Notes under the pieces: model-generated | What the model was told of the DNA's origin: nothing | The model's input: the letters and a program-made list of their open reading frames with translations, nothing else | The model's database searches: none | Shown: positions 21,057 to 62,384 of the stretch, piece after piece | Numbering within the stretch: the stretch's first letter is position 1 | How the letters are laid out: each line of letters starts with the position of its first letter | Program-made: the position numbers and the translations under genes | Source of the DNA: Amaranthus tricolor | Taxonomy: Eukaryota > Streptophyta > Magnoliopsida > Caryophyllales > Amaranthaceae | Reading direction: 5' to 3' | Length of the DNA stretch: 64,000 nucleotides | Assembly (NCBI RefSeq): GCF_026212465.1 | Contig: NC_080049.1 | Location: 2,992,960 to 3,056,959, forward strand

Positions 21057-21784
<728 letters not shown>

Positions 21785-26302: not shown

Positions 26303-26430
26303 TTGTTTGTATTATTACAACTTACTAGTTCTATTGGCTAGTGCTTTTCATCTATTACGAGTTCCATTATTTATATAGATAATAAAGAGTATAACTACAC
26401 ACATTTCTAAGGCGCTAACTTGATCACGAT
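26303..26430 (-). promoter_or_regulatory. Short OMT1 promoter left between the gene and a transposon
   Basis: On the minus strand a TATA box, TATATAAAT (26369-26377), lies about 67 bp before the ATG, and a CCAAT word lies nearer the gene. Only about 128 bp of original sequence remain before the transposon end. The same arrangement is found at the other units. Confidence 0.6.
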
Positions 26431-26593
26431 GGGACGGTACATTCTTATATATCGTCACCCTTTTTATTTTATCGCTACCTCCTAATGAAATTACGAATTT
26501 GCTCCTGCACTTAAAACTTGTTTAACACTATTATCACTTTAAAAACATTAAATTTAAAGTTTAAACGTAATCTCGAACATTTTTATCGCGACC

Positions 26594-26604
26594 CTATATA
26601 TATT
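26594..26604 (+). promoter_or_regulatory. TATA box of the OTU gene, copy A
   Basis: CTATATATATT lies about 120 bp before the OTU start codon and about 160 bp inside the TIR. The same box is at about 35456 in copy B, and a similar one, CTATATATACC, precedes the PMD gene at 51081. Confidence 0.5.
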
Positions 26605-26807
26605 AAATTTTCAGACGCGCCCTTGTATGATATACGAATTCAAACACGGTACTATCTCTCTAAAAACTCTCTAAAAACGTTCTTCAATTTTAAACAAGCT
26701 GTTAGTTGGAATCGATTAACTATGGCTAACGAAAGCGACTATGAATCGGATCCGGTACGTACTTTAATCGATTTGAATCGGTGTATTTTTTTTTTAAAAA
26801 AAAAAGA

Positions 26808-26966
26808 AAGTCGCAAAAACTGGGCGAGTGAACCATGGTTCAATCGCACAAAACGTGCGACTGGACCGTGGTCCACTCACACGTTTTGTGCAACTCCACC
26901 GTGGTCCACTCGCACGATTTGTACGACTCCACCGTGGTCTGCTCACGGTTTTTATGCGACTGGTTT
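26808..26966. repeat. GC-rich palindrome cluster in OTU intron 1, copy A
   Basis: Alternating words 'gtcgcac', 'cacaaaacgtgcgac', 'accgtggtccact' and 'cacacgttttgtgc' form nested inverted repeats. The best single unit, in copy D, is GTCGCACAAAACGTGCGAC. Equivalent clusters lie in the other copies at about 35667-35853, 46494-46683 and 60408-60599. Confidence 0.8.
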
Positions 26967-27004
26967 TTTTTTCTTTTTTTATTATTTACATTATTATTTA
27001 AATT

Positions 27005-27087
27005 ATTATACGTCTTAGTAAATTATTATTATTAATATTATTATTAATATTATTATAATATTATTATTATTATTAATATTATTTGTA

Positions 27088-27178
<91 letters not shown>

Positions 27179-27245
27179 TTTAGTATTTTTAGTATTATTA
27201 TTATTATTATTAATTTTTGTTATTATTATTATTATTGATGTAAGT
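27005..27245. repeat. (TTA)n microsatellite in OTU intron 1, copy A
   Basis: A long TTA tract with minor interruptions. Matching tracts occupy the same intron position in copies B (about 35936-36200), C (about 46740-46900) and D (about 60656-60880), with different lengths. Confidence 0.9.
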
Positions 27246-28313
27246 AATTTATATTATTAACATTACTATTATTTTGTTAATATTTATTTAAATAATTTAT
27301 AATTATATGTTATTATTATTATTTTCTTATTATTTAATATTAATTTTTTATTATTATTACAATTATTTTATTATAGTTTTTGTATTGTTATTATTTTAAT
27401 ATTAATTATTTAAGTAAATTATAATTTTTAATTAATATTAATTTGTATTACTAATATTTTAATATTAATTATTAAAGTAATTTATAATTTTTAATTATTA
27501 TTGAATGTTTTTATTATTAATGTTTGTATTTATAATTTTTTAATTATCTAATGTATGGTTTGTTTCATATTTCAAATTTGCAGGACTTTGAAAACTTAGG
27601 AGACAACGTAGATTATTCCGGTAGATTTGTTACGGATAGTGAATTTGATTCCTTAGATGAATTACATACTTGGGCCGATGCGATAGCAATAACAATTGGT
27701 TTTCAATTTACACGTGCTTCTTATAAACAAAAAGAAAGACGTTCTAGAGTTAGTATGTATTTAAGATGTCACCGCTTTGGTAATATTATGGGTGATTTAA
27801 ATATTCTAGATAATGCTGCTCGAGCTGGATCTAAAAGTAGAAGTTGTGAGTGTAAATTTTTGATTGTAGCAAGTAGTCGTAAACCAGGAGAAAAACCTTG
27901 GACGGTAAGGGTGTGTCCAGGAGGTCGTGATTTTTTACTGTTTCTATGGCCTAATTACATCCGGCACATTCTTCGTCCTTACTTGTTTGATTGGATTGAT
28001 GTCTTAGGTGATGGTAACTGTGAATTTAGAGCTATTGCCGCCACAGAGTTGGGAGGCGAGGAGGCATGACCTCTTTTAAGACGTGCTATGTGTATGGAAA
28101 TGCAAATGAACAGAGACCAATACCTAAGTTTGTATCTATCGCAGGAGTCGTTAGTCGATGCTATTCACACAGCAATGGACCTGCTCCTTATATTCACTGG
28201 ATGGATGCACTGATGTCATTGTACTCTGCAGCAACGTTTCTTAACATTGGCATTGCTTATTATAGTTCTGCTGACGGTAATCCGCTGTACAACTATTTTG
28301 TTCTTCCGTTAAG

Positions 28314-28410
28314 GAAGCACGTTTTGTGCGACTGAGCCGCGGTAGAGTCGCGGGTTTCGTGCGACTGACCCGCGGTGGGCTCGCGGATTCCGTGCGGCTG
28401 GCCCATTTTT
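28314..28410. repeat. PMD-side palindrome cluster, copy A
   Basis: Words 'cgttttgtgcgactgagccg', 'gtcgcgggtttcgtgcgac' and 'cccgcggtgggctcgcgg' form GC-rich inverted repeats. By comparison with 51181-51760 this belongs to the first intron of the PMD gene, now fused to the OTU exon by deletion. Equivalents lie at 30596-30645, 47998-48090 and 61975-62062. Confidence 0.65.
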
Positions 28411-28564
28411 TTAATATTTTTTTTCGTTTTTTTAAAAATTTAATATAATATGATTCGAATAAAAATTAACTTGATTATTTGTTTGCGGATTGAATTTCTT
28501 AGTTTTTGCTCCAAAAATTTTATGTTGTAATTTTGTTTTTTAAGTGTGATAAAGGAGTTATTTC

Positions 28565-30595
28565 TTAGTAATCGAATTCAATATGATCGGATTTCAAAAA
28601 TAATTACAGTCATGTAATAAACAATATGGACAAAAAAACGATTTCAAACAGACCCGAAATTAACTAGGTAACCCGAAGGAACACCTGATTTAACAATCAT
28701 GTATGTTGCCCCAAAAACAATTGTGACATACTTCCTCCGCTCTATTATACTGTTATTTCACTTTATTATTATGCAATTCAATGTGCTATCTTAATCGTTT
28801 ATATCATGAGCTATACATAACTAATACACGATAAAATATGGAGCACAATCAATGGTACACGATAAAATATATTATGGTTCAAGTCATTGGGCGTGTCTGA
28901 GTGGAGTCTTGTTCTATAGCGGGTCTAACATGAGTCTAGGGTGGGTTTATGTTTGGAAACATTTGACCTAAATTTAAACTCAATTATTTTTTAGACTAAG
29001 AGTCAGAATCAAACTTAAACCTATACTCAATAAGTTTCAAATTAAACCCAAATTTTAACATACATTAAAATTTGGGTAAATTCTAGAGAGAATTTAATAT
29101 TACAATTTTTGACCATCCCTAATAATAAGGCTTAGGAGTATCTTAGCTTCGATGAATAAAGCTTTGTAAGATCATTTTACTATTTCACAAATTTTTATAT
29201 GAGACAGTTTTATCATGAGACGGACTTCATATTACCCTGAGATGGGCTTTATATAAAGATTAAATAGCCGAATAATACAAATTAATAAGATATAAGTTTT
29301 TTTTAAGGTGATTTCATTGAAAAATGTTCTCTCACAAAAGTAACACCATTTTAAACTGAATATGAAGTTTGGGCATACAATTTGAAGTTGATGTTGATAA
29401 GATGAGAATCAATAATGAACGTTTTTGGGCTTATTTAAATTTGAGTGTGGATAAAATTGTAAGGGCAATCACCAATGAAAGTTTTTAGCCACAAAAGAAT
29501 TAGTACAAGTACTCCTGAATATTATTACAAAGGAAACAATGAACGTGCTTGGATTATCTATTAACTCAGTGAATGCAGCTAATTTGACTGTGCACATTCC
29601 CTTTATTCCCTCCTTGAGTAGAACAGCTGTTATTTGTCCGAATCTTTAGAAAAAAACTTCTCACCCGAATCCTGTCTTGTGCGAGATACTGTGATTGTCC
29701 TTACCTTTTACCTTTTATGCTTTGAGTTATATTTTAAAATCTTACTTAATTATAGCTTTATTTATTTTTGATATAATTTAAATACTAAACTCACATTGTT
29801 GTATATGGATTGAGATGTTTGGTGAAGAACAATAAACAAACATATGCACAAAGAACACACAAAAACAAAGTACAACACCAAAGAGCAACAACAAGATTTA
29901 TGAGGTACCTAAAGATACCTCCCCCTCAAACAAGGATTACTTTCATTAATATATCAATATACACTAATGATAAGCCACACACAAGCTCTGAGAACACTCT
30001 CTCAAAGTAAAGATTGAACCTTTAATGTCAATCTCACACAAACTTGCAAATACAAAGAAGAAGAACTCTAATAGTTGAAACCCTAGTTGCCTGTGTTGTA
30101 TTTTCTATATGTATTTTCTCCTAGTATACCCGCTGTGAGAGTAGAGGGATGAGACTGTGGTGGGTCATATCACTGGGTATGATAGAAGTAAATACATTAG
30201 AAATGTTGAATTATCAGATCATAATCAAAAGGTAGGATTATTTGCAGCATATGAGTAAAATATTGGATTATTTTCGACAATTTTCCTTTGAATTATAAAA
30301 ATTAGTTAAAAGAATTTTACATTGAGTTGAATCAAATAAGATATATTCACTTGAATATGTTTTCACTTATAAATTAAGAATTAAATATCAATTAAAATTT
30401 ACTTAATCAATAATTAGTGCCCATAAAGCAAATGAGAACTTGGTGCTAAAATAAAGGGAAATTAAACAGTTTTTCTTGTAGGCATGGATATTAAAATCAC
30501 GATTCTGATCTACGATTTTATGATCCAAAAACAAGCGAATGATTTGTAGAGTTAGAATCATAACACGATTCTACGATTCTACGATCATAACATGG
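28565..30595. repeat. Flank repeat of the OMT array (F2)
   Basis: It corresponds to 31230-33200, 48640-48950, 62640-64000 and part of 17636-18926. It includes a Stowaway-like end ('cttcctccgctctatta'), copia-LTR-like sequence in reverse (about 29801-30130) and, at the end, a truncated copy of the hAT MITE seen whole at 18935. The small reading frame at 29810-30010 recurs identically at 32952-33152 only because the repeat does. Noncoding. Confidence 0.75.
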
Positions 30596-30967
30596 TTTGT
30601 GCGACTGAGCCGCGGTGGGCTCGCGGATATCGTGCGACTGGCCTCTTTATTTGTATATTTTCTTTTCGTTTTTTTTTAAATTTAAAATAATACGATCCAA
30701 TAAAAATTACCTCGATTATTTGTTTGCGGATTGAATTTCTTAGTTTTTGCTCCAAAAATTTTATGTTGTAATTTTGTTTTTTAAGTGTGATAAAGGAGTT
30801 ATTTAGTGAGGTTAGAGTATAAATAAGAAATTTTAAGTCCAGTGGGAAATTCGTAATTTTTTAAAGTCCTGGGGCAAATTCGTAATTTCATTGAGGGGAT
30901 GGCGATAAAATGAAAAGGGTGGCGATGTTTAAATATTGAGAAAAAAAAAAGGCAAAATAATACCCTC
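30596..30967. mobile_element. Right-end fragment of an OTU/PMD transposon
   Basis: It starts within the PMD-side palindromes ('tttgtgcgactgagccgcgg'), continues through 'gcggattgaatttcttag', and ends with the right TIR 'ggcgataaaatgaaaaggg', 'tggcgat' and 'ataccctc' at 30967. The next bases, ATCACGAGG, match the flank beyond the right ends of copies C and D. Confidence 0.75.
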
Positions 30968-35146: not shown

Positions 35147-35274
35147 TTGTTTGTATTATTACAACTTACTAGTTCTATTGGCTAGTGCTTTTCATCTATT
35201 ACGAGTTCCATTATTTATATAGATAATAAAGAGTATAACTACACACATTTCTAAGGCGCTAACTTGATCACGAT
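35147..35274 (-). promoter_or_regulatory. OMT-type promoter of the pseudogene
   Basis: It is almost identical to the OMT1 promoter (TATA box in 'ccattatttatatag', minus strand), ending at the transposon left end at about 35275 with the same join 'gcgctaacttgatcacgat'. Confidence 0.6.
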
Positions 35275-35582
35275 GGGGCATTGTTATATATCGCCACCCT
35301 TTTCATTTTATCGCCACCTCCTAATGAAATTACGAATTTGCCTCTGGTCTTAAAATTTGTTTAACAAATGTAAATCGCACTTAATAACATTATTATCACT
35401 TTAAAAACATTAAATTTAAAGTTTAAACGTAATCTCGAACATTTTTATCGCGACCCTATATATATTGAATTTTCAGACGTGCCCTTGTATGATATACGAA
35501 TTCAAACATGGTACTCTCTCTCTAAAAACTCTCTAAAAACGTTCTTCGATTTTAAACAAGCTGTTAGTTGAATCGATTAACT

Positions 35583-35988
35583 ATGGCTAACGAAAGCGAC
35601 TATGAAGCGGATCCGGTACATACTTTAGTCGATTTGAATCAGTGTATTTTTTAAAAAAAAAAAAAAAGAAGTCGCAAAAATTGGGCAAGTGAACCATGGT
35701 TGATTCGCACAAAACGTGCGAGTTGACCACAGTTTAGTCGCACAAAACGTTCGACTGGACCCTGGTCCACTCACACGTTTTGTGCGACTCCACCGTGGTC
35801 CACTCGCACGATTTGTGCGACTCCACCGTGCTCTGCTCACGGTTTTTGTGCGATTGATTTTTATTTTTGTTTTATTTTTGTTTTTTTTATTACATTATTA
35901 TTTAAATTATTATACGTCTTTGTAAATTATTATAATTAATATTATTATTAATATTATTATAATATTATTATTAATAATAATATTATTT

Positions 35989-36059
<71 letters not shown>

Positions 36060-36086
36060 ATTATTATTATTATTATTATTACTTTT

Positions 36087-36164
<78 letters not shown>

Positions 36165-36165
36165 T

Positions 36166-36201
<36 letters not shown>

Positions 36202-37470
36202 TTCTTATTATTTAATATTAATTTGTTTTATTATTATTACAATTATTTTATTATATTTTTTTATTGTTATTATTTTAATATTAATTATTTAAGTAAATTA
36301 TAATTTTTAATTAATATTAATTTGTATTACTAATATTTTAATATTAATTATTAAAGTAATTTAAAATTTTTATTTATTATTGAATGTTTTTATTATTAAT
36401 GTTTGTATGTATAATTTTTTAATGACCTAATGTATGGTTTGTTTCATATTTCAAATTTGCAGGACTTTAAAAACCTAGGAGACAATGTAGATTGGTTCGG
36501 TAGATTTGTTATGGATAGGGGATTTAATTCCTTAGATAAATTACATAGTTGGGCAGATGCGATAGCCATAACAATTGATTTTCAATTTACACGTGCTTCT
36601 TATAAACAAAAAGAAGGACGTTTTAGGGTTAGTGTGTATTTAAGATTTCACCGCTATGGTAATATTATGGGTGATTTAAATATTCTAGATAATTCTGTCC
36701 GACCTGGTTCTAAAAGTAGAAGTTGTGGGTGTAAATTTTTGATTGTAGCAAGTAGTCGTAAACCAGGAGAAAGACTTTGGACGGTAAGGGTGTGTCCGGG
36801 AGGTCGTGATTTTTCATTGTTTCCATGGCCTAATCACATCCCGCACATTCTTCCTCCTTACTTGTTTGATTGGATTGATGTCTTAGGTGATGGTCACTGT
36901 GAATTTAGAGCTATTGCCGCCACAAAGTTGGGAGGCGAGGAGGCATGGCCTCTTTTAAGACGTGCTATGTGTATGGAAATGCAAATGAACAGAGACCAAT
37001 ACCTAAGTTTGTATCTATTGCAGGAGTCGTTAGACGATGCTATATTCAGAATTGGTTCTCACGGCAATGGACCTGCTCCTTATATTCACTGGATGGATGC
37101 ACTGATGGCATTGTACTCTGCAGCAATGTTTCTTAACATTGGCATTGCTTATTATGGTTCTGCTGACGGTAATCAGCTGTACAACTGTTTGGTTCTTCCG
37201 TTAAGGAAAGCATCGGGCGTGCACAGTATAAATAAAGTTATACATATATGCTGGTTGAATAGAAATCATTTTGTTCAACTATTAATGAACGGCGATTCAT
37301 CTCCACTGCCGCCAGTCCATCAACATTGGAGAGAAGCAATTGACAATTTTTCCAGACATATAGAAACATATTCTACTAGTAGGATTATGCTTTGGAATAA
37401 ACTATGCGGGCCACGACCACCACAACGTAATAACACCGCTGAAGATGCTGTAAATTTAGATAGTCCATAG
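35583..37470 (+). CDS. FAR1-like/OTU cysteine protease protein, intact
   Basis: Transposon-encoded protein joining a FAR1-type DNA-binding-like region to an OTU (ovarian-tumour) cysteine protease domain; OTU enzymes usually cut ubiquitin or related linkages. Exon 1 is 35583-35615 (MANESDYEADP). The intron runs 35616-36462, with donor GTACAT and acceptor TTTGCAG. Exon 2 is 36463-37470. Product 346 residues. A FAR1-like Cys/His set is visible: C99, C101, C122, H136 and H139, in SRSCGCKF, VCPGGRD and PNHIPH. The OTU core follows immediately: Asp154 and Cys157 in GDGHCEFRAI, the middle segment GPAPYIHWMDA, and His280 in NRNHFVQL. In the related plant MULE proteins I know, a transposase lies between the two regions; here it is absent. 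The other three copies are broken. Whether it is expressed or active is unknown. Confidence 0.75.
35667..35853. repeat. GC-rich palindrome cluster in OTU intron 1, copy B
   Basis: Same design as in copy A: 'gtcgcacaaaacgttcgac', 'ccgtggtccactcgcac' and 'cacacgttttgtgcgac' alternate in both orientations. The translated Arg/Ser/Thr-rich frames over it are by-products of the repeat. Confidence 0.8.
35936..36200. repeat. (TTA)n microsatellite in OTU intron 1, copy B
   Basis: Long TTA tract with ATT/AAT interruptions, at the same intron position as in the other copies. Confidence 0.9.
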
Positions 37471-37652
37471 TGTAACGTGATGTGTAAATCATTATTCAGT
37501 TTTACTACAGAAATTGTAGATGGGATTCAATTTGTAGATAGTCCATAGTTATACTATTGTGTACGTCATTACTATAGAATTTGTAGATGAAATTCAATAT
37601 GTATAGTAATGTTGTAAATTAATAAAAGCATTGATGTAAACATGAATTAAAT

Positions 37653-39823
37653 TTAATGTAAAAAGCGTTGATATAAATAAATAAACGCATTAATGTAAAT
37701 TAGTTTAAATACAGACTGTAAAGGGCCATGATCCTTAAAAGCTTGCCATTCGGCAAAGAAATCTTTAACATCACCAAGGTATACATCTAAAGCATGTCTT
37801 TCCCGGGTGTTCATTTCCGCAACAGCAGGCAATCTCGCCAATGGAGCGACTCGACTTGGCCATTCATTCAGAAACTGAAAAAAAAAGGAAAAAGGGTGTG
37901 AATAAGATATTAAACAACATCTAAATAACACAACGACATTATAGAAAACAAATAAATTCAAAAAACTAATTTATTCCAATCTGCTTTCAGCTGGACCAAA
38001 ACCGGCACTCGGTCCTTCGCCGGGGACGACGTATAGGTGGGAGCACACTCTGAACCAGTCAACGTAACTAGGATCAGCCTCTGATGGAACAGATGCCCGA
38101 CGAAGTGCCTGATCACCAAGGCGGGCACTGTAGCGGAACCTACTCCATGCCTCCAAGTACACAGGCAGAGAAGCAAAGGTCACGGAGTAGGTACCGTGTG
38201 TCGGTCGTACAGCCTGGGTTGGTCTCAGAGGAGGGGGGGAATAGCCTGCACAAAGCCGACTTGTCGCATTGTCCTCTCCGGAAAATACACCTCGACGATA
38301 TCAAAGCAAGTGATACCCGCGATGAAGGTGGTGCATGGGTGCTCATTCAGCAATGCCCTTGTAGAATTCATGTACGGAGTCCATTCCACCTGCATACAAG
38401 CCAAGTTAACATATAAAAATAATCTAAAATTTAAATAACATGCATAACAAAGTGTGATGTGATGTACAATACCTGAGTCTCCGTCATGCAGTCCAGTATA
38501 CTCCTGCAGTCCCTCAGCCTGTTGATCTCACGACCTGGCTTGGGCGTGGACCACATCTCCGCCCTAGTCTTATTAGGTACATCTGCTCGGCGAGGATGAG
38601 GGCGGAAGGCGGGAAAGTACTCGTAAATCCATGTCTGGAGCAATGTGAGGCAACCCGTAATGGTCTTGCAACCAGCCCTAGATGCCATTCCCAGTTGGCG
38701 ATACATGTAGGCCAGCGTCACCGCACCCCAGGCGATCTCATCCTGATTGACGTTGACGGAAAGTATCGAGTGAGGTCGCATGCCAGTTCTAGTCTTATCC
38801 GCCAGTAGGGTAGAGCCGACAATAGCCATGTAGTAGGCTGTCGACTGGGTCTCCATAGCGTGGGACCGATGACACAACTACATCACTTCAGCAACGCTGA
38901 CGCAACCGCTGGTGAATATCCCTTTCCGTCGTAGCTCGGACATGGGCTCCCCAAACAGATTAGTAATACCGACCTGCCACTCCCCTTCAGAAGGCTCAGC
39001 CGGTAGAGAACCTTCAATACCTATGCCTAATATGCGTTGCACGTCGTGCAACATAATCGTCATCTCCCCCATGGCATGTGGAAGGTGTTCGTATCCGGCT
39101 TCCACCTCTCCACGAGGGCCGATATCAAAGCATAGTCGATGTGCTGGTGCATAATGTACGGTAGCCGGCCGAGGGGAGTAGCAGGTAGAACATCGGAAAG
39201 CGCATCGGTCATATCCCACAGTCCGATGATCGCCTCCAACGGCTTCTTTCTACTACGGCATTCCAGAACCGGAGGCGTACGCTCAGAGCCGTCAAAAATA
39301 ACATTAGCTATGTGCCCGCCATAGCTGGGTATCAGGCGCGTATCTGTGGGCCCCCCGGTCTGGGGCGATGTGACTAAACAGTCCGTTCCAGCGGATTGTG
39401 AGCGCCTGCTCCCCCGTGGCGGCTCATTATGAACGAGACTATGTTCGACCTGCTCAGATGTGCCTGAAAAACTAGGGTCGGCACGTGCGAATCTCTCGTC
39501 GAGCCCCCGGACAACAGTCCAGTCCACTGGGCGAAGATCGGGACCTTGGTATTGAACATCATCAACATCATTATCATCATCACTAGAAACCCCCCAACTA
39601 CTCTCGAGGCTGCTAGCCTAGTCAGCAAAACGAGTACGCACTTGATTCAGCGTATTCGACCGTTGGGCCTCACTGTGTCTGGCAGCCTCTTCCTGCCTAG
39701 CCCTTCTAGTAGAACCCGTCACCCCCTCTCATAAGGGTCCCCTCTGAGCAGGGTAGGCCTAGAACTATTCCCGCTCAACAAGTTTCTAAAAAAACCCTTT
39801 CCTTTCCCGTGAGTACCAGCCAT
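37653..39823 (-). pseudogene. Plant mobile domain (PMD) gene, copy B, broken
   Basis: Encodes a plant mobile domain protein (PF10536, related to MAIN/MAIL1 and often misnamed 'phosphatase 7 long form'). ATG at 39823 (MAGTHGKGKGFF), directly after an intron acceptor. Coding runs to a donor at 38471-38472 after MTETQ, resumes at 38389 (VEWTP) and should splice again to FLNEWPSR near 37880. PMD landmarks: LERC/LECRS-type start, GRLPYIMHQHIDYALI, FHMPWGEMTI, VQRILGI, GSTLLADK, YRQLGMASRAG and WIYEYFPAFRP. Defects: a G-run one base short near 39733 gives an early stop, one base is missing at PWG/EMT (about 39070), a TAG follows VAEVM (about 38878), and the second intron donor is lost (TAA where the 53-kb copy has TAC/GTGAG). 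Convergent with the OTU gene. Confidence 0.8.
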
Positions 39824-39975
39824 TTACTACAATTTTTGATAATTTAGTTAACTATTATTAATAAATAAACATAATCAAACGTTACGTTAAATTAACCACA
39901 TGAACAAAAAATAATTAATTAGCAACAACAATATTTAACTAATCATTATCAACAAATACAATGTAAGAACATATT

Positions 39976-40240
39976 TATTATTATTATTATTAATATTATT
40001 ATTGTAATTAATTTTCTGAATTAATAATAATCATAATAATAAAAATAATATTAACAAAAATAATAACATTAATAATAATCATAACAATAATAACACAAAC
40101 AACAATAATAATCATAAGACTAATAGCAAAAACAATATTTAAAAATAAAATTAAAGAAAAATTTACTAACAATAACAATAATAACAACAACAACATCACC
40201 AACAAAAATAATAAAAATAATATTTAAAAGAATATTAAAA

Positions 40241-40296
<56 letters not shown>

Positions 40297-40369
40297 TTTA
40301 AAAAAAATAAATTAAATATAAAAATTAAAACAAAAATATAAATTTAATAATAATAATAATAACAATCAC

Positions 40370-40430
<61 letters not shown>

Positions 40431-40437
40431 TTAAATA
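39976..40437. repeat. (TAA)n-rich tract, PMD intron 1, copy B
   Basis: Several TAA microsatellites, the longest at about 40245-40295 and 40370-40430, lying upstream of the PMD start. The whole block 39690-40437 recurs at about 45258-46019. Confidence 0.9.
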
Positions 40438-41841
40438 GTTGGAATGAAAATGATTTGTATTGTAAATTTAATGATGTGTCTCATGTTATTTTCATGCTAA
40501 TAAAATTTAATCATAAAAAAATGTTTGTTCACAATTTTTCATTACCACCTAATACCACATTTTCAAATGGTAATGTAATACATAGAATTGAATTAAATTT
40601 TGTGATAAAAATTAGATTTTTAAAGGAAAATAAGCATGATTAATACACTTGTCAAAAGATAATCTAACTAAAATTACAGAAACTTTACCATTACCATTTT
40701 TACTATTCAATATTGATTATCAAATGCATGGTTAGGGTAATGTGTCATATTATTGTGAACGAATGGGATAGATTGTATTATCAAGTGCTTATTGTATTAA
40801 TCGTGATAAAAGTATTAATTTTTTAATTTCACTTGTAGATAAAAAAAATTTTAATTTTTTAAATGTATAGCCATTAAGGGGATTCTTGGCAATTAGTTTT
40901 TTTATTGACTTTTTGGTTGGTTTGGACAAAATTTTAAAAAGTGTTTGACAAATAAGTTTTAAGATCTGAATTTTATTTTAAAACTAAAAACTTACCCATA
41001 GTTGTTTATCATCAACCAATAAATAATTTTTACCAACATCTCCATAATAATTGGCATAATTAAATAGCTTACTTATCCGCTAATACATTCAGCTAGTCAA
41101 ATTAGATAATATTTATTTGCCAAACAGACTTTAAGAATTTTTTTCAGATGATAGGATAGGCTTAGGGTAAGAGAAAATCAAGTAAAAATCGCGTTCAAAA
41201 CCTTATATGAATAATGTTGTGTTTACTCCAATGATAAGATAGAATTCTAACCATTTACAACTTTTCTTCACCTAACTTGGAATTTAATGTTCCACATGAC
41301 AATTGTATATTCTTTTTATTTATTTTTATTTAATGAGATTGCGAAGGTTCTTTAATTTTTAGCCTCATGTCATTTGATTTTGTGGATAAAATGATAAGGC
41401 AATCACGGAATAAAATATTCGTAATTTTAAAATTCGTCATCCTTTTTATTGTGTCTTTATTCCTTTTTTATTGAAATAAAATACCCTTAAATTAATTTAA
41501 TTATAAAATCAACTATTATTATTAATAAACTAAATTTATTAATTATAATTAAATTAAAATAAAAAATATTAATTTTATTAAAGAAAACAATTTTTTTAAA
41601 TCGGAAAATAAACCTAATCACACGTTATTTGTTGAAATTTAATACATGATCACCCCATACCTTCGCCCCGATATGGAAGATGTTTAAAACGCAAATCACA
41701 TTCTAAATCAACGAATCTGAAATACTCACAAATCGACAAATATAAATATATAATGATTTAATGATACGGCCTAAATAATCCTCAATCATTCATACGTGTA
41801 CGCAGGTCATTTCTCTAGCCATATATGTTTCCTATTATTTT
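40438..41841. other. AT-rich region, no gene; carries an empty insertion site
   Basis: No coding sequence is seen. The stretch 40676-40840 matches 49020-49168 plus 50279-50310. The single TAA at 40816-40818 corresponds to the TAA duplicated around the PIF/Harbinger element at 49169-50278, so this is the unoccupied paralogous site. Confidence 0.6.
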
Positions 41842-42363
41842 AAGAAATTTTACGTTGTAATTTTGAAGTTTAGTATTTTTCAATAGGTAACTAAAATTTT
41901 TAAAAGATCCATGCAGTAATTCTGAAGTTTACCAAATTATTCTACCTTGATCTTTTTGCACATAAAACATTAGCAAACGTGAATTTCGAAGCTTTAAAAC
42001 TGTTGTACGCCTATTTATGCAACTCTTCATTTCATATTTCATTAATTTCAACCTTTTCCCCTAAAATATAAATTCTAACTCTACCATCTTTCATCCAAAT
42101 CATATTTTTCTCCCAAATCCAAAGATGGTAGAGTTAGGGTTTATATTTTTGCGGAAAAGGTTGAGACTGGTGGCATTTGAAATGGCGAGTCGCATAAATA
42201 GGCGTACAATAGCCTTAAAGCTTCGAAATTAACTTTTGCTAACATTTTATGTGCAAAAAGGTCAAGGTGAAACAATTTGGTAAACCTCAGGCACGTGTAT
42301 ATTTTAAAAGTTTTGGTTACCACGTGGCAAACCCAAAACCTCAGGGTTATCACTTTGAATTTT
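41842..42363. mobile_element. Foldback Mutator-like MITE, 522 bp
   Basis: Two inverted arms of about 220 bp (for example 'ttcgaagctttaa' and 'gtacgcctatttatgc' with their reverse complements at 42195-42235) are separated by a short loop near 42100. The flanks carry an 11-bp direct repeat with one mismatch: CCTATTATTTT (41831-41841) and CCTACTATTTT (42364-42374). Noncoding. Confidence 0.7.
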
Positions 42364-42433
42364 CCTACTATTTTTATATGTATTGAAATTGCACTTGGCG
42401 GGTGGCTATTTGCTACTAGCTACTACTTGGCTT

Positions 42434-43571: not shown

Positions 43572-45257
43572 CTTAGCTTAAGTTATAGAAGTAGACTTGG
43601 CTATCGACCATCAGATTTGGCCCATCGACTCAAAAATGCGCGAACTTGGACAATATTTTTTTTTATCAAAAGTTCAAAATATGGATCCGTCAAGCACGCC
43701 TATTTAAGATTAACAAACATATTAGCCTCCATTTTAAGATTGAAGAGGGGTAAAAACACAAAAAAAATATTTGCATTTAAGACCACTTGCTTTTTTCTAT
43801 GTATATATTTTACTTTAAGTTTTCTATTTTTAAGGCTCTTTTAATCTTTAGTGATAAGATTCTCATCATTATCCAACCCAGTGTATCACGCACATATAAA
43901 AATACAATCTTTAGTGATAAGATTGTATCCTAAAAATGTTTGTTTAAATTTACTTTAGATGTAATAAATTTATTTTTTAGCGTATCATTTTTTTTTTCAT
44001 AATTTTTTTTGCATTAAATTTTATCCTTCATCATTATAAGTGTTTTCTTTACATATGCAACTATAAAAGAAAAAAAATTTGGTTGCCCACAGGTTTACCT
44101 GCTAAGAAAACAGGTTGGTAGTGGTAAGTGAATTAGCTCGCTGACAAAATTTTGAAATCTTAGGACAATCAATAGAATTTTAGAGGTGAACTTGGTTTAC
44201 TAACCATCCAAATCCGCCTATAAACATCTCAAAATATTCATTTTGAGTTTTTCAATCTTGCTAGAATGTCAATATAAATTGTATTCTAATTTTTGATAAA
44301 TTTTACTTGTTGATAATGAGAATCGCGAATGAACCGATTGAACGATTTCAGCCTCATTTAGTTGGATAATGGATAAGATTACAATGGCAATCACCAATCA
44401 TAGTTTTTCTCTTTTAAAAACGTGGAAAATAAAATAAACGATGCAATAAATAAAACTATTCTTGTGAGAGACAGTCTCTTAAAGGGACGACCCTAAAATA
44501 AGAAGTCCACGTTCTTATTTAATCTTTAATTTGTATTAATTAAGTTATTTAACCCATATATCTAATTCGTCTCTTGGAGAGACCGTCTCTCACAACAAAT
44601 TGTGAAATAAAAATACACGATAATATCAAGTCTCTATCAACGTCTAAACAAAACTGTTCTAACAATTTATAAACTAATAAATAAAATTCTTTATTTTGAA
44701 AACTTTGGACAGTCGAACACATTACACGTATATTAAGATGTGGTTTTGACATTTATAAAGCGTTCGATCTTACATGGCCTCCTAAATTCAAATATCTTAA
44801 ATACTCATAAGCAAGCCGAAAAGTTACTATTATTCGTTCCTTTTTAATAGACAGACTCTTCAAAACGCACGTAGGTAAATAATGTATATTTTTATCCTTA
44901 ATATCGTTATATATTCACAAATATAATTTTTAAAATGTAGAAGTAAATTACTCCTATTAAATAGATGTATATAAATTTTACAAACTCACACCTAAATTGT
45001 AATTATATATTTTGTTAAACAAATATAGTCTTTCTAGCCCATGGTTACGCCAACATTTTCATTTTTGTTTGTCCCTTTTATTATTAAATACTTTTATTTT
45101 GAGTATTGTTCAATTTCATTAACTCTTATTCATATATTTTCTCTTATTTTACCTTCTTTTTAATCTTATCAAAACAATTTTTAATAATTCTAACATTTTC
45201 TTTATATTTATACAATTTTAATCATATCAACACAAAGAGCTAGAGTAATTCACTAAA
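43572..45257. other. Intergenic region, no gene seen
   Basis: AT-rich. The only structured element is the small inverted repeat listed next. Several short reading frames have no recognisable domain. Confidence 0.4.
44460..44600. mobile_element. Small MITE with TTGTGAGAGAC ends
   Basis: Inverted repeats 'ttgtgagagacagtctct' (left) and 'agagaccgtctctcacaa' (right) enclose about 100 bp of AT-rich sequence. No target duplication is assigned. Related words ('gagacagttttatcatgaga') occur in the flank repeats. Confidence 0.55.
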
Positions 45258-45548
45258 GCCTCTTCCTGCCTAGCTCTCCTAGTAGAACTCGTCACCCCCT
45301 TCTCATGAGGGTCCCCTCTGAGCATGGTAGGCCTAGAACTATTCCCGCTTAGCAAGTTTCTAAAAAAACCCTTTCCTTTCCTGTGAGTACCAGCCATTTA
45401 CTATAATTTTTGATAATTTAATTAACTATTATTAATAAATAAACATAATCAAACGTTACGTTAAATTAACCACATGAACAAAAGACAATAACTAATTAAC
45501 AACAACAATATTTAACTTATCATTATCAACAAATATAATGTAAGGACA

Positions 45549-45592
<44 letters not shown>

Positions 45593-45835
45593 AATTAATT
45601 TTCTAAATTAATAATAATCATAATAATAATAATAATATTAACAAAAATAATAACATTAATAATAATCATAACAATAATAACACAAACAATAATAATAATC
45701 ATAACACTAATAACAAAAACAATATTTAAAAATAAAATTAAAGAAAAGTTTACTAACAATAACAATAATAACAACAACAACAACAACATCACCAACAAAA
45801 ATAATAAAAATAATATTTAAAAGAATATAAAAAAG

Positions 45836-45886
<51 letters not shown>

Positions 45887-45958
45887 TTTAAAATAATAAA
45901 TTAAATATAATAACTAAAAAAAAAATAAAAATTTAATAATAATAATAATAAAAATCAC

Positions 45959-46019
<61 letters not shown>
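45258..46019 (-). pseudogene. PMD gene 5' fragment with its upstream (TAA)n, copy C
   Basis: 45258-45397 encodes only the first 47 or so PMD codons (ATG at 45397, MAGTHRKGKGFF), and 45398-46019 is the intron-1 tract with (TAA)n. It matches 39690-40437 closely. Here the G-run keeps frame, reading HEKGVTSSTRRA, so it preserves a less damaged 5' end than copy B. Confidence 0.7.
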
Positions 46020-46021
<2 letters not shown>

Positions 46022-46111
46022 GAGTGCTAACTTGATCACGAGTTTCATTATTTATATAGATAATAAAGAGTAAAACTACACACCTTTCTAAGGCGCTAAC
46101 TTGATCACGAT
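46020..46111 (-). promoter_or_regulatory. Orphan OMT promoter fragment
   Basis: It contains the far part of the OMT promoter ('tcattatttatatagataa', 'aaggcgctaacttgatc') with no OMT gene attached. 'gctaacttgatcacga' occurs twice, at the two ends of the fragment. It shows that this unit lost its gene by rearrangement with the (TAA)n tract. Confidence 0.6.
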
Positions 46112-46818
46112 GAGGCATTATTATATATCGCCATCCTTTTTCATTTTATCGTCACCCATTAATGAAATTACGAATTTACCTCTGCACTTAAAACTTGTTT
46201 AACAAATGTAAATCGCACTTAATAACACTATTATTACTTTAAAAACATTAAATTTAAAGCTTAAACGTAATCTCGAACATTTTTATCGCGACCCTATATA
46301 TATATTGAATTTTCAGACGCGCCCTTGTATGATATACGAATTCAAACACGGTACTATCTCTCTAAAAACTTTCTTCGATTTTAAACAAGCTGTTAGTCGG
46401 AATCGATTAACTATGGCTTACGAAAACGACTATGAATCGGGTCCGGTACGTACTTTAATCGATTTGAATCCGTGTATTTTTTTTTAAAAAAAAAAAGTCG
46501 CAAAAACTAGGCGGGTGAACCATAGTTGAGTCGCACAAAACTTGCAAGTAGACCACGGTTCAGTCGCACAAAACGTGCGACTAGATCGTGGTCCACTCAC
46601 ACGTTTTGTACGACTCCACCGTGGTCCACTCGCACGATTTGTGCGACTCCACCGTGGTCTGCTCGCAGTTTTTTTACGACTGGTTTTTATTTTCTTTTAT
46701 TTACTTTTTTTTATTATTTAAATTATTATACGTCTTAGTAAATTATTATTATTAATATTATTATTAATATTATTATAATATTGTTATTATTATTAATATT
46801 ATTTGTATTTTTTATTAA

Positions 46819-46897
<79 letters not shown>

Positions 46898-48378
46898 TTT
46901 TGTTATTATTATTATTTTTAATGTAAGTAATTTATATTATTAACATTACTATTATTTTGTTATTATTTATTTAAATAATTTATAATTATATGTTATTATT
47001 ATTATTTTCTTATTATTTAATATTAATTTATTTTATTATTATTACAATTATTTTAATATATTTTTCGTATTGTTATTATTTTAATATTAATTATTTAAGT
47101 AAATTATAATTTTTAATTAATATTAATTTGACTAATATTTTAATATTAATTATTAAAGTAATTTATAATTTTTATTTATTATTGAATGTTTTTATTATTA
47201 ATGTTTGTATTTATAATTTTTTAATGACCTAATGTATGGTTTGTTTCATATTTCAAATTTGCAGGACTTTGAAAACTTAGGAGACAACGTAGATTACTCT
47301 GGTAGATTTGTTACGGATAGAGAATTTGATTTATTAGATGAATTACATAGTTGGGCCGATGCGATAGCAATAACAATTGGTTTTCAATTTACACGTGCTT
47401 CTTATAAACAAAAAGAAAGACGTTCTAGAGTTAGTATGTATTTATGATGTCACCGCTATGGTAATATTATGGGTGAGTTAAATATTCTAGATAATGCTAT
47501 CCGACCTGGTTCTAAAAGTAGAAGTTGTGGGTGTAAATTTTAGAATGTAGCAATTAGTCGTAAACCAGGAGAAAGACCTTGGACGGTAAGGGTGTGTCCA
47601 GGAGGTCATGATTTTTCACTGTTTCCATGGCCTAATCACATCCGGCACATTCTTCCTCCTTACTTTTTTGATTGGATTGATGTCTTAGGTGATGGTTACT
47701 TTGGATTTAGAGCTATTGCCGCCACAGAGTTGGGAGGCGAGGAGGCATGGCCTCTTTTAAGACGTGCTATGTGTATAGAAATGCAAATGAACAGAGATCA
47801 ATACCTAAGTTTGTATCTATCGCAAGAGTCGTTAGACAATGCTATATTCAGAATTGGTTCACACGGCAATGGACCTGCTCCTTATATGCAGTGATGGTAT
47901 TGTACTCTGCAGCAACGTTTCTTAACATTGGCATTGCTTATTATGGTTCTGCTGACGGTAATCCGCTGTACAACTGTTTGGTTCTTCCGTTAAGGAAGCA
48001 CATTTTGTGCGACTGAGCCGCGGTCGAGTCGCGGGTTTCGTGCGACTGACCCGCTGTGGGCTTGCATATTTCGTGCGACTGACCCATTTATTTATTTTTT
48101 TTCCTTTTTGAAAAAATTTAAAATAATACAATTCGAATAAAAATTACCTCGATTATTTGTTTGCGGATTGAATTTTTTTGTTTTTGCTCCAAAAATTTTA
48201 TTTTGTAATTTTGTTTTTTAAGTGTGATAAAGGAGTTATTTAGTGAGGTTAGAGTATAAATAAGAAATTTTAAGTCCAATGGCAAATTCGTAATTTTTTA
48301 AAGTTCATAGACAAATTCATAATTTCATTGGGAGTGGCAATGTTTAAAAATTGGAAAAAAAAACAGAATAATGCCCTC
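46112..48378 (+). mobile_element. OTU/PMD transposon copy C, deletion derivative with both ends
   Basis: Left end GAGGCATTATTATA; right end, read inward, GAGGGCATTATTCTG. The two match well, so the TIR terminus is close to GAGGGYATTATT. Next inside comes 'atcgccatcc...cattttatcg'. The flanks are 'gATCACGAT' on the left and 'ATCACGAGG' on the right, an imperfect 8-9 bp target duplication. It contains the truncated OTU gene and PMD-side palindromes. Confidence 0.75.
46413..48016 (+). pseudogene. FAR1-like/OTU gene, copy C, broken
   Basis: Exon 1 is 46413-46445 (MAYENDYESGP) and exon 2 starts at 47265. Breaks: TGA at about 47446 (Arg in copy B), TAG at about 47541, a deletion after 'ccttatatgcag' near 47890, and the shared loss of everything after LPLRK. 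The catalytic Cys is also replaced: copy C reads GDGYFGFRAI. Confidence 0.8.
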
Positions 48379-49526: not shown

Positions 49527-49565
<39 letters not shown>

Positions 49566-50278: not shown

Positions 50279-50281
50279 TAA

Positions 50282-50907: not shown

Positions 50908-50984
50908 CAGTGGCGGACCCAGCTAGGGTCAAGTGAGGGCAGTAGACCCCCCAATCTGAAAAAAAATCCCAATCCTTATATTCC

Positions 50985-51035
50985 GCCACCCTTTTCATTT
51001 TATCGCCACCCCCCGAGTAAATTACCATTTTACCC
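50985..51035 (+). repeat. TIR of the OTU/PMD transposon, PMD side
   Basis: 'ccgccacccttttcatttta' followed by 'tcgccacccc' is the same terminal sequence as at 35285 and, inverted, at 30890-30930, 48320-48350 and 62310-62350. Confidence 0.75.
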
Positions 51036-51080
51036 TTACTTTATAAAAAATTAACAATATTGCCATTGAGGGTGAAATTC

Positions 51081-51179
51081 CTATATATACCACACTCCAC
51101 CTAACTACAACTAAATACAACTCACTAAAGCTAAATCTCGGAGCAAAAATTAAGTACAATCCCCAAATTATTAATCGAG
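51081..51179 (+). promoter_or_regulatory. PMD TATA box and noncoding first exon
   Basis: CTATATATACC at 51081-51091 is followed by a leader that ends 'ttaatcgag' at 51179, then the donor GTAAGT. The words 'ggagcaaaaa' and 'aataatcgaggtaa' recur, inverted, in the right ends of the OTU/PMD deletion derivatives (for example near 28490 and 62150). This places those ends as PMD leaders. Confidence 0.6.
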
Positions 51180-51225
51180 GTAAGTTATTTTTTATTTAAT
51201 TAGTTGCAAAAGAAAAAAAAAATTT

Positions 51226-52065: not shown

Positions 52066-54099
52066 ATGGCTGGTAATCAAGGAAAAGGAAAATGTTTTTT
52101 TAGGCAATTGTTGAGAGGTAATAGTTCAAGGCCTACTTTACTTAGAGGGGACCCGCATGAGAGGGGGGGTGACGGGTTCTGCTAGGAGGGCTAGGCATGA
52201 AGAGGCTGTCAGACACAGTGAGGCCCAAAGGTCGACTACGCTGAACCAAGTGCGTACTCCTATTGATGACCAGGCTGACAGCCTCCAGAGTAGTTGGGGG
52301 GTTTATAGTGATGATGATAATGATGCTGATGATGTTCAGTTCCAAGGTACTGAGTGTCGCCAAGCCCGACGGCAGATTTGCGCGGGGCGGCCCGAGTTCT
52401 TCTGCCGCATCTGAGCGCGCAGGACGTAGTTTTGTCGATAATCAGCCCTCACAGTCCACTAACACGGACTGGTTAGTGACATCACCCCAGCCCGGTGGGC
52501 CGACAGATACGCGACTGATCCCTAGCTATGGCGGGCACATAACTAAACTTATTTATGACGGCTCCGAGCGTATGCCTCCGATTCTAGAATGCCGTATTAG
52601 GAAGAGACCGGTGGAGTCCATCATCGGACTGAAGGATATGTCCGATGCGCTAAACGATGTTCTACCTGCCACTTCCCTCGGCCGACTACCGGTCATTATG
52701 CACCAGCACATCGATTGTGCTTTGATATCTGCGTTCGTCGAGAGGTGGCAGCCGGATACGAACACCTTCCACATGCCCTGGGGAGAGATGACGATTATGT
52801 TGCACGACGTGCAACGCATATTGGGTATTTCTATTGAAGGTTCTCTGCCGGCTGAGCCTTCGGAGGCGGAGTGGGAGGTTGGTATCACCAATCTGTTCGG
52901 GGAGCCTCTGTCTGAGCTTCGGCGTAAAGGTTCATTCACCGGCGGATGCATAACCGTTGCTGAATTGATGCGGCTGTGTCATAGGTCGCAGGCTATGGAT
53001 ACCCAGAAGACAGCGTACTACATGGCTGTTATCGGCTCTACCTTGTTGGCGGATAAGTCCAGAATTGGCATGCGACCTCACCCGATACTTGCCGTGAACG
53101 ACGATCAGCAGGACGTGGCCTGGGGTGCGGTGACCTTGGCGTTCTTGTACAGGCAACTCGGAATGGCATCTAGGGCTGGTTGCAAGACCATTGCTGGATG
53201 CCTCACATTGCTCCAGACATGGATCTATGAGTACTTTCCCGCTTTCCGCCCTCATGCTCGCCGAGAAGATGTGCCAAACATGACTAGGGCGGAGATGTGG
53301 ACACCGAAAAAACCATGTCGTGAGCTGGACAGGTTGAGGGACTGCCGCAAGGTTCTTGATTCAATGACGGAGACTCAGGTACTGTACATTACATTTTGTC
53401 ATGCATGTTGTTTTCAATTTATAGTATTTTTTTGTGAACTTCGCTTGTATGCAGGTTGAATGGACTCCCTACAATTCTGCTGCTGGTGCGTTGCTGAATG
53501 ATCACCCACGCACCACCGTAATCGGGGGTATCACGTGCTTTGATGTTGTGGAGGTGTATTTGCCGGAGCGGACATTGCGACAGATTGGGTTCGTGCAGGC
53601 TATTCCTCCCGCTCCTATTAGACCAGCCAAGGCTGTCCGACCGGCACACGGTACCTACTACGTGACCTTTCCTTCTGCTGCTGTATATTTGGAGGCATGG
53701 AGTAGGTTCCTCTATAGTGCCCGCCTTGTTGAGCAGGGACTTCGTCGGGCTTCTGTTCCTTTTGAGGCTGAACCTAATTACGTTGATTGGTTCAAAGTGT
53801 GCTCACACCCGTACATAGCCCCGGACGAAGGGCCTACTTCCGGTCCTGGTCCTTCTCAGAGCAGATCTGAATACGTGAGTTTTATTATCATTTTTTTTTC
53901 AGATTATTTTTGTAATGAATTAATAACGGACATTATCCTTTTGTGTTTTCAGTTCCTGAATGAATGGCCCAGTCGATTCGGTCCACTGGCAAGACTACCT
54001 GCTAAGGTTGCGGATTTGAACCCCCGTCAACGACATGCGTTAGAAATATACCAAAAGCAAAGGGAAAACTCGAAGGATGAATTTGTAATTTTCATTTGA
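52066..54099 (+). pseudogene. Plant mobile domain (PMD) gene, 52-kb copy, nearly intact
   Basis: Plant mobile domain protein as in copy B. Noncoding exon 1 ends at 51179 and the intron runs 51180-52062. The coding exon runs from the ATG at 52066 (MAGNQGKGKCFF) to 53378 (MTETQ), the next exon is 53455-53874 (VEWTPY to SRSEY), and the last is 53953-54099 (FLNEWPSR to a TGA). Both coding introns are GT-AG and keep frame. PMD landmarks: PPILECRIRK, GRLPVIMHQHIDCALI, FHMPWGEMTI, VQRILGISIEG, WIYEYFPAFRPHARR and YLEAWSRFLYSARL. Two single-base shifts interrupt the N-terminal part: one extra G in a run of seven (about 52163-52169), and one near 52345-52380. After that the frame is open for the whole PMD core. 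Could be a translated gene if a start downstream is used, but more likely a recent pseudogene. Confidence 0.75.
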
Positions 54100-60037: not shown

Positions 60038-60407
60038 GGGGCATTGTTATATATCGCCACTCCTAATGAAATTACGAATTTGCACCTGAACTTAAAACTT
60101 GTTTAACAAATGTAAATCGCATTTAATAACACTATTATCACTTTAAAAACATTAAATTTAAAGTTTAAACGTAATCCCGAACATTTTTATCGCGACCCTA
60201 TATATATTGAATTTTCAGACGCGCCCTTGTATGATATACGAATTCAAACACGGTACTATCTCTCTAAAAACTCTCTAAAAACGTTCTTCAATTTTAAACA
60301 AGCTGTTAGTTGGAATCGATTAACTATGGCTAACGAAAGTGACTATGAATCGAATCCGGTACGTACTTTAATCGATTTAAATCGGTGTATTTTTTTTTTA
60401 AAAAAAG

Positions 60408-60599
60408 GAAGTCGCAAAAACTGGGCGAGTGAACCATGGTTGAGTCGCACAAAACGTGCGAGTAGACCACGGTTCAGTCGCACAAAACGTGCGACTGGAC
60501 CGTCGTCCACTCACACGTTTTGTGCGACTCCACCGTGGTCCACTCGCACGATTTGTGCGACTCCACCGTGGTCTGCTCACGGTTTTTGTGCGACTGGTT
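60408..60599. repeat. GC-rich palindrome cluster in OTU intron 1, copy D
   Basis: The best-kept cluster: GTCGCACAAAACGTGCGAC, 'accacggttcagtcgcac', 'cacacgttttgtgcgac' and 'accgtggtccactcgcac' in alternating orientation over about 190 bp. Confidence 0.85.
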
Positions 60600-60655
60600 T
60601 TTTTTTCTTTTTTTATTATTTACATTATTATTTAAATTATTATACGTCTTAGTAA

Positions 60656-60692
60656 ATTATTATTATTAGTATTATTATTAATATTATTATAA

Positions 60693-60738
<46 letters not shown>

Positions 60739-60742
60739 TGTA

Positions 60743-60830
<88 letters not shown>

Positions 60831-60880
60831 TTTAGTATTATTATTATTATTATTATTAATTTTTGTTATTATTATTATTA
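60656..60880. repeat. (TTA)n microsatellite in OTU intron 1, copy D
   Basis: Long TTA tract at the same intron position as in copies A-C. Confidence 0.9.
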
Positions 60881-62384
60881 TTGATGTAAGTAATTTATAT
60901 TATTAACATTACTATTATTTTGTTAATATTTATTTAAATAATTTATAATTATATGTTATTTTTATTATTTTTTTATTATTTAATATTAATTTTTTTATTA
61001 TTATTATAGTTATTTTATTATAGTTTTTGTATTGTTATTATTTTAATATTAATTATTTAAGTAAATTTAATTTTTAATTAATATTAATTTGTATTACGAA
61101 TATTTTAATATTAATTATTAAAGTAATTTATAATTTTTATTTATTATTGAATGTTTTTATTATTAATGTTTGTATCTATAATTTTTTAATGATCTAATGT
61201 ATGGTTTGTTTCATATTTCAAATTTGCAGGACTTTGAAAACTTAGAAGACAACGTAGATTATTCCGGTAGATTAGTTACGGATAGGGAATTTGATTCCTT
61301 AGACGAATTACATAGTTGGGCCGATGCGATAGCAATAACAATTGGTTTTCAATTTACACGTGCTTCTTATAAACAAAAAGAAGGACGTTCTAGAGTTAGT
61401 GTGTATTTAAGATGTCACCGCTATCGTAATATTATGGGTGATTTAAATATTCTAGATAATGCTGCTCGAGCTGGATCTAAAAGTAGAAGTTGTGAGTGTA
61501 AATTTTTGATTGTAGCAAGTAGTCGTAAACCAGGAGAAAACCTTGGACGGTAAGGGTGTGTCCAGGAGGTCGTGATTTTTTACTGTTTCCATGGCCTAAT
61601 CACATCTGGCACATTCTTCGTCCTTACTTGTTTGATTGGATTGATGTCTTAGGTGATGGTAACTGTGGATTTAGAGCTATTGCCGCCACAGAGTTGGGAG
61701 GCGAGGAGGCATGACCTCTTTTAAGACGTCCTATGTGTATGGATATGCAAATGAACAGAGACCAATACCTAAGTTTGTATCTATCGCAGGAGTCGTTAGT
61801 CGATGCTATATTCAAAATTGGTTCACACAGCAATGGACCTGCTCCTTATATTCACTGGATGGATGCACTGATGGCATTGTACTCTGCAGCAACGTTTCTT
61901 GACATTGGCATTGCTTATTATAGTTCTGCTGACGGTAATCCGTTGTACAACTGTTTGGTTCTTCCGTTAAGGAAGCATGTTTTGTGTGACTGAGCCGCGG
62001 TAGAGTCGCGGGTTTCGTGCGAGTGACCCACGGTGGGCTCGCAGATTCCGTGCGGCTGGCCCATTTTTTTAATATTTTTTTTTCGTTTTTTTAAAAATTT
62101 AATATAATATGATTCGAATAAATATTATCTCGATTATTTGTTTGCGGATTGAATTTCTTAGTTTTTGCTTCAAAAATTTTATGTTGTAATTTTGTTTTTT
62201 AAGTGTGATAAAGGAGTTATTTAGTGATGTTAGAGTATAAATAAGAAATTTTAAGTCCAGTGGCAAATTCGTAATTTTTTAAAGTCCAGGGACAAATTCG
62301 TAATTTCATTGACGGGGTGGCGATAAAATGAAAGGGGTGGCGATGTTTAAGGATTGAGAAAAAAAAAGGCAGAATAATACCCTC

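Follow-up and report, generated by a model that had tools for sequence, protein, structure and literature searches.

Convergent FAR1/OTU and PMD genes in copy B

We analyzed a window of 64,000 nucleotides from Amaranthus tricolor (NC_080049.1, positions 2,992,960 to 3,056,959, forward strand), which holds several partial copies, here called A to E (Table 1), of a Mutator-like element (MULE) with two facing genes. One gene encodes a protein with a FAR1-type part and an OTU-type part, and the other a plant mobile domain (PMD) protein. Copy B is the only copy in the window with both gene bodies, and there a first-pass annotation made from the sequence had placed an OTU gene on the + strand (35583-37470) and a PMD gene on the - strand (37653-39823), converging with about 180 bp between them. 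We confirm this arrangement, with a gap of 182 bp. The + gene starts about 310 bp inside the left terminal inverted repeat (TIR) at 35275, and its coding exons (35583-35615 + 36463-37470), once spliced, form a single open frame in which the Cys and His of the OTU motifs are kept. The PMD gene starts at 39823 and has its last in-frame stop at 37653-37655, with PMD homology spanning 37722-39823. Both genes have TATA-like boxes and a first exon that is either short and coding (OTU) or non-coding (PMD), and the first introns of both contain inverted repeats and TTA/TAA runs.

The PMD gene of copy B is interrupted by at least three frame changes (near 39730, 39075, and 38236) and by in-frame stops near 39730, 39619, and 38879, and the PMD gene of copy E has frame changes near 52170 and between 52291 and 52371. 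Neither PMD copy in the window encodes a whole PMD protein. The copy E sequence matches Pfam PF10536 with E=5.1e-43 and 148 bits (cut-off 34.9), and the relatives P0022 and P0023 match the same family. The copy B gene was assigned by homology; its product is close to P0023 of Amaranthus tricolor, at 68-90% identity in four pieces, the lowest of which spans an intron.

The right ends retain the first exon of the PMD gene

In copies A, C, and D, the right end includes, between the TIR and the deletion point, a stretch that aligns with the 5′ exon and the splice donor of the PMD gene in copy E (GGAGCAAAAA...AATCGAGGTAA). The scores were 53 for D, 52 for C, 54 for A, and 54 for a second A piece; shuffled sequences gave means of 23-26 and maxima of 39-46, and 0/1000 shuffles reached the score in each of the four tests. 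When the interior of the OTU end was compared with the same exon, there was no match (102/1000 shuffles reached the score). When the entire window was scanned with this exon, the sites that matched it best, apart from the surroundings of copy E, were the right ends of A, C, and D, in the expected orientation, and in copy E itself a TIR core lies just upstream of the PMD first exon. Because the right ends of A, C, and D retain the PMD 5′ exon and E has the TIR core, the ancestral layout, as far as these alignments indicate, was most likely TIR-OTU facing PMD-TIR. Copies A, C, and D are not independent witnesses of this layout, since they share one insertion (see below); copy E is independent.

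A two-gene convergent MULE, with each gene starting from its own TIR, is therefore found by combining copies, with the left end present in all four of A-D and the right represented by the PMD exon 1 region within the right TIR of A, C, and D; no single copy shows everything. The first-pass annotation had each gene starting inside its own TIR with a TATA-like box, a tiny or non-coding exon, and a repeat-rich intron, and these features are visible once the copies are combined, except that copy B has no right TIR. Its assignment to a Mutator-like family with two convergent genes is supported: A, C, and D still have the PMD first-exon region at their right ends.

The layout of copy B could also be accidental, if a PMD-bearing element had inserted into, or recombined beside, an unrelated OTU element. 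The missing right TIR of copy B would suit such chance nesting, as would copy E, which has PMD as its sole gene and is bounded by different ends of a hAT-like type, and the PMD 5′ fragment that also adjoins copy C. Against it, A, C, and D, although without a PMD body, have the PMD first-exon region at their right ends in the correct orientation, at scores that none of the 1000 shuffles reached, whereas the OTU end does not match that exon. We regard chance nesting as unlikely, and the earlier treatment of copy B as one element stands in this respect.

Table 1. Coordinates of the element copies and their parts in the window.
Feature	Position	Strand	Basis or remark
Left TIR of copy B (GGGGCATTGTTATATATCGCCACCC...)	35275..35357	+	Aligns with inverted right TIR of D; right TIR has one extra stretch near tip
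TATA-like box 5′ of OTU gene, copy B	35456..35471	+	Read from letters; putative
FAR1/OTU gene, coding exon 1 (MANESDYEADP), copy B	35583..35615	+	
FAR1/OTU gene, intron 1, with inverted GTCGCAC repeats and long TTA run, copy B	35616..36462	+	Opposite-strand matches among intron copies
FAR1/OTU gene, exon 2; FAR1-type part to ~36798 fused directly to OTU-type part, copy B	36463..37470	+	Open frame
PMD gene of copy B, exons 2-4, with frame changes and stops	37653..39823	-	PMD homology
Residual PMD intron 1 with TAA runs; end of copy B	39824..40437	-	
Copy A: altered left end (~26430) and truncated FAR1/OTU gene to 28563, flanking DNA, right end 30594-30967	26430..30967	+	
PMD 5′ fragment (start-codon side and intron 1), directly left of copy C	45257..46019	-	93% identity to 39684-40430
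Copy C: both TIRs, truncated FAR1/OTU gene, PMD first-exon region, no PMD body	46112..48378	+	
Copy D: both TIRs, truncated FAR1/OTU gene, PMD first-exon region, no PMD body	60038..62384	+	
Copy E, 5′ part: TIR core, TATA-like box, non-coding first exon, PMD splice donor	50967..51190	+	
Copy E, PMD coding exons, two frame changes	52066..54099	+	PF10536, homology

Copies A-D descend from one insertion

The left TIR found at 35275 has further copies at 46112 and 60038 (three matches in all; 0 in 100 shuffles) and an altered one at ~26430 in copy A. In A, C, and D, the left end aligns with the right end as an inverted repeat. The left ends proposed earlier, at 35275 and 46112, thus hold and are joined by two more, as do the right ends of A (to 30967) and C (to 48378), to which that of D (to 62384) is added. 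The remains are those of a non-autonomous MULE, with long TIRs in A, C, and D and only the left TIR in B. The DNA left of the TIR is common to A, B, and D, with C having only the nearest ~77 bp. On the other side, the sequence that follows the right TIR, beginning ATCACGAGGATATG, is common to A, C, and D. The motif ATCACGA is repeated in both flanks of A, C, and D at the same site (7 bp exact, 9 bp with one mismatch), a fair though imperfect fit to a MULE. Since flanking DNA is shared, we conclude that A-D are one insertion that was multiplied with its surroundings; four independent transpositions are ruled out by the same common flanks, and the four copies are not independent of one another. 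The deletions in A, C, and D also took the OTU end and the PMD body.

The gene left of the TIR in A, B, and D is presumably an O-methyltransferase gene, and its repeated copies (25469-26311, 34558-35159, and 59085-59921) form the unit duplicated along with the transposon. At copy C, the flank motif CTAACTTGATCACGA occurs twice (46027 and 46096), where the PMD 5′ fragment joins; the PMD N-terminus of that fragment lies at 45397-45257.

The PMD gene of copy E lies in a unit (50908-54299) between 15-bp inverted ends, CAGTGGCGGACCCAG, flanked by an 8-bp repeat, CTCAGGCT. We take these ends to resemble those of hAT-type elements, and in that case copy E would be a piece of the MULE that lies nested within another transposon or is carried by it. 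One more TIR of this family stands alone at 49940-50058, with its outer end at 50058 and a GTCGCAC inverted repeat nearby; as read by eye, a small element with ends GGGGTCATTTGGTT (~49170-50282) seems to enclose it.

The left gene probably derives from a FAR1-MULE-OTU transposase gene

A protein search (E <=0.001) gave 21 relatives of the FAR1/OTU protein among 838 candidates, and all 21 were read; many are predicted gene models, some of them patchy. In none of the 21 is FAR1 joined straight to OTU, and the MULE domain (PF10551) is found in three. P0020, from Amaranthus, has a FAR1-type start, the MULE domain, a linker, and the OTU start, and P0153, a further relative from quinoa, has FAR1-type, MULE, and OTU parts in a single 770-aa chain. 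Shorter arrangements are MULE and then OTU in P0017, and the end of MULE, CGC...CAC cysteines, an SR-rich linker, and OTU in P0142, which represents a cluster of 56 sequences. The order typical of full FAR1/Jittery-type members, a FAR1-type part and then MULE, is present in P0153 and in two other further relatives, P0146 and P0150. We take the cysteines of P0142 to resemble SWIM, for which there was no Pfam match, and what we assume to be the MULE catalytic signature (D, D, CxxH, E) is visible in P0144. To judge from these relatives, the first protein of the family is not a standalone protease-type protein, and full members in Amaranthus and quinoa have the form FAR1-MULE-OTU. The first-pass annotation had described a family whose first protein was of protease type; this is not supported, since a MULE transposase between FAR1 and OTU, which that annotation had itself named as a refutation if present in full copies, is seen at the protein level in P0020 and P0153.

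In copy B, the FAR1 part (...TVRVCPG) runs directly into the OTU linker (GGRDFSLFPWP), whereas at this join point P0146 continues ...TVRVCPGEKGKHNHPF and P0003 reads ...DDPGGRDFSQFPWP. From this comparison we conclude that B has lost, by deletion, both the transposase core and the HNH end of its FAR1-type part. The MULE-domain part of none of ten relatives matches the window; matches to it are by FAR1, linker, or OTU parts only. Because the stretch from the FAR1 end to the OTU linker is missing, copy B is unable to make a transposase, and because the MULE domain that is present in relatives is deleted here, copy B is a non-autonomous derivative of a FAR1-MULE-OTU transposon. No DDE transposase, as an autonomous MULE would encode, is found in the window with the MULE domains of these ten relatives, and relatives carry PF10551.

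PF03101 (FAR1) was reported for P0158 only, below the cut-off, so the FAR1 assignment rests on homology and names. For the OTU part, the motifs GDGxC and NHxV, which we take to be the catalytic motifs, have their Cys and His in >=90% of 13 aligned rows. A profile search gave eight PDB rows at E <=1, of which seven are named OTU enzymes, a weak but consistent result; the best match (E 1.3e-4) is a viral polymerase chain, presumably its OTU domain. The best named matches of both window genes come from Amaranthus.

We compared five of the six pairs of OTU copies (C-D left out) over the first 103-161 codons of exon 2. The dN/dS values were 0.85 for A-B, 1.29 for A-C, 0.76 for B-C, 2.09 for A-D, and 0.56 for B-D; counts are small and every bootstrap interval includes 1, so there is no detectable constraint since duplication. 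These values bear on a further explanation, that a FAR1-OTU protein without transposase is a real family, kept as such and moved by the transposase of another family. The open frame of copy B and its retained Cys and His would be in keeping with such a protein. But 0/21 relatives have the direct join, and A-D, all of which have it, derive from one insertion and show no constraint in the codons compared, which makes this explanation very unlikely.

The PMD gene diverged under constraint

A PMD tree was built from 62 of 120 listed matches (202 found), limited to named species and >=370 aa, plus three window pieces; it had no Arabidopsis rows and was rooted at its midpoint for drawing. The PMD sequences of B and E group with all nine Amaranthus rows of the tree in a set of 12 rows (support 100/100), B beside P0023 and E beside P0027 and P0022. 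Names such as MAIN-LIKE on these relatives are labels of the source records.

Between B and E, dS is 0.45, dN is 0.13, and dN/dS is 0.30 (0.23-0.40) over 467 codons of exons 2-3, with the N-terminal part left out; when exon 4 is included in its best-identity frame, dN/dS is 0.34 (0.25-0.45) over 513 codons. The two PMD copies have thus diverged under constraint, and because both are now broken, the earlier constraint was probably stronger. This pattern of substitution would fit a PMD gene that served the lineage of the element for a long time.

The element could instead be a Pack-MULE, a non-autonomous MULE with captured fragments of host OTU and PMD genes. MULEs do capture genes, and PMD-C capture by MULEs has been published (PMC5418596). 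Yet the clusters to which the OTU part belongs number 56, 25, and 16 sequences, and the largest of them carries a MULE transposase; the first exons of both genes are tied to the TIRs; and the window PMDs represent two subgroups, diverged under constraint, of the 12-row Amaranthus set. A Pack-MULE origin is scarcely credible on this evidence.

An element probably moved in trans and decaying after local duplication

We think it likely that A-D go back to a single insertion of a Mutator-like transposon, a FAR1-MULE-OTU derivative with an opposing PMD gene, which was mobilized in trans, duplicated locally, and is decaying. The element would have been moved by a full-length transposase of its own family acting on the TIRs, and after insertion it would have multiplied by local duplication of its surroundings before decay set in. 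Movement in trans had been proposed in the first-pass annotation, and it is the natural reading for copy B, as an ordinary deletion derivative and not as a member of a transposase-free family.

Several observations weigh against this reading. Copy B lacks the right TIR, and no TATCGCCAC core, with one mismatch allowed, lies from 38703 to 46126. The flank repeat of 7 bp (9 bp with one mismatch) is short for a MULE, in which the target-site duplication is 8-11 bp. The FAR1/OTU protein has no Pfam or NCBIfam match, and two structure predictions of the OTU part, with pLDDT of 38.6 and 41.7, are too poor for use. The interiors of the right ends resemble the OTU end weakly (28/1000 shuffles reach the score for D, 7/1000 for C, and 191/1000 for A), and part of the terminal likeness may, to judge from these alignments, be common to both ends. 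The window contained no complete element, in which both TIRs would enclose transposase and PMD, nor any DNA copy with transposase and PMD together.

With respect to the missing right end, copy B had been given the bounds 35275 and 40437. That position is the end of a TAA run, at which PMD intron 1 of copy B stops, and is not a TIR. When the right ends of A, C, and D were compared with the 4.5 kb past the OTU stop of B, there was no match except a stretch of 21 bp and the flank of C. The 21-bp match, AT-rich and shared by the A and D right ends, lies at 41845-41865, downstream of copy B; we rejected it as the right end, since on reading it looks like a chance AT-rich likeness. DNA like the far right flank of copy C resumes at 40665, to the right of copy B, and for this reason the right end of B was probably lost through later rearrangement. 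The TAA runs at the junction of the PMD 5′ fragment and copy C (46019-46112) and at 40437 in B look like a common breakpoint.

Relation to known MULEs

In maize MuDR, the genes are convergent from the TIRs. MuDR (mudrA/mudrB) is like the present element in having two genes in one MULE, and unlike it in that the second gene, mudrB, is not a PMD gene and there is no OTU. Jittery/FAR1-type MULEs (group 36; Dupeyron et al. 2019, PMC6446971, Table 1) share with the present element the N-terminal FAR1, the MULE transposase, the SWIM-type cysteines (here in relatives), and TIRs. That table lists neither PMD nor OTU for them, and copy B differs further in lacking the transposase core. The same table lists an antisense PMD in several plant MULE groups (42, 49, and 50), although the main text, where accessible, does not spell PMD out. 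These MuDR-clade elements likewise have the PMD gene on the strand opposite the transposase, but the table gives them no FAR1 and no OTU. Ikeda et al. 2017 (PMC5418596) describe two PMD-C captures by MULEs, in grasses and Amborella; there the MULE-borne PMD is fused to the transposase, whereas the PMD of the present element is an opposing gene of its own, found in a eudicot. According to Nicolau et al. 2020 (PMC7156037), the PMD-C of eudicots is mainly genic. As for proteases, MULEs bearing ULP1, including Kaonashi, are described in PMC2528002 and PMC13317346, and Table 1 of PMC6446971 lists an Ovarian Tumour Gene only for the Hydra MULE MuDR-6_HM. Both are similar in that a MULE encodes a ubiquitin- or SUMO-type protease domain, but ULP1 is another protease family and MuDR-6_HM belongs to a distant group, with no FAR1 or PMD listed in that table.

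An opposing PMD is therefore not new as such; the new part is its pairing with a FAR1-type transposase ending in OTU. Among the literature matches listed, which took in few subscription papers and did not cover Repbase, none described this combination.

Host PMD proteins contribute to transposon silencing by a route that remains obscure, and transposon-borne PMDs have been suggested to counter it (PMC5418596 and PMC8616336). We offer, as a tentative idea that we hold to be possible but rather doubtful, that full members form a two-component selfish system of the eudicot FAR1-type MULE lineage, for which neither partner is listed, consisting of a transposase with a built-in OTU deubiquitinase and a PMD protein from the opposite TIR that selection maintains as a decoy for, or an antagonist of, the MAIN/MAIL1/PP7L silencing module of the host. 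In such members, the OTU domain might remove ubiquitin from the transposase or a partner and so spare it from ubiquitin-dependent loss, the PMD protein might interfere with MAIN/MAIL1/PP7L silencing, and the two opposing genes would then supply movement and counter-silencing. A family with a separate, constrained PMD gene opposite the transposase would make PMD counter-silencing testable in a eudicot, and, with OTU as a fused part of plant MULE transposases, the activities of transposon-borne proteases would come to include ubiquitin removal in addition to the known ULP1 cases.

Other features of the window

Two long, exon-like frames lie at 3915-6181, which we take to be exons of a plant glycosyltransferase gene. 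A long, TA-rich tract of satellite-like character occupies 20897-21868, and several frames run open through it on both strands.

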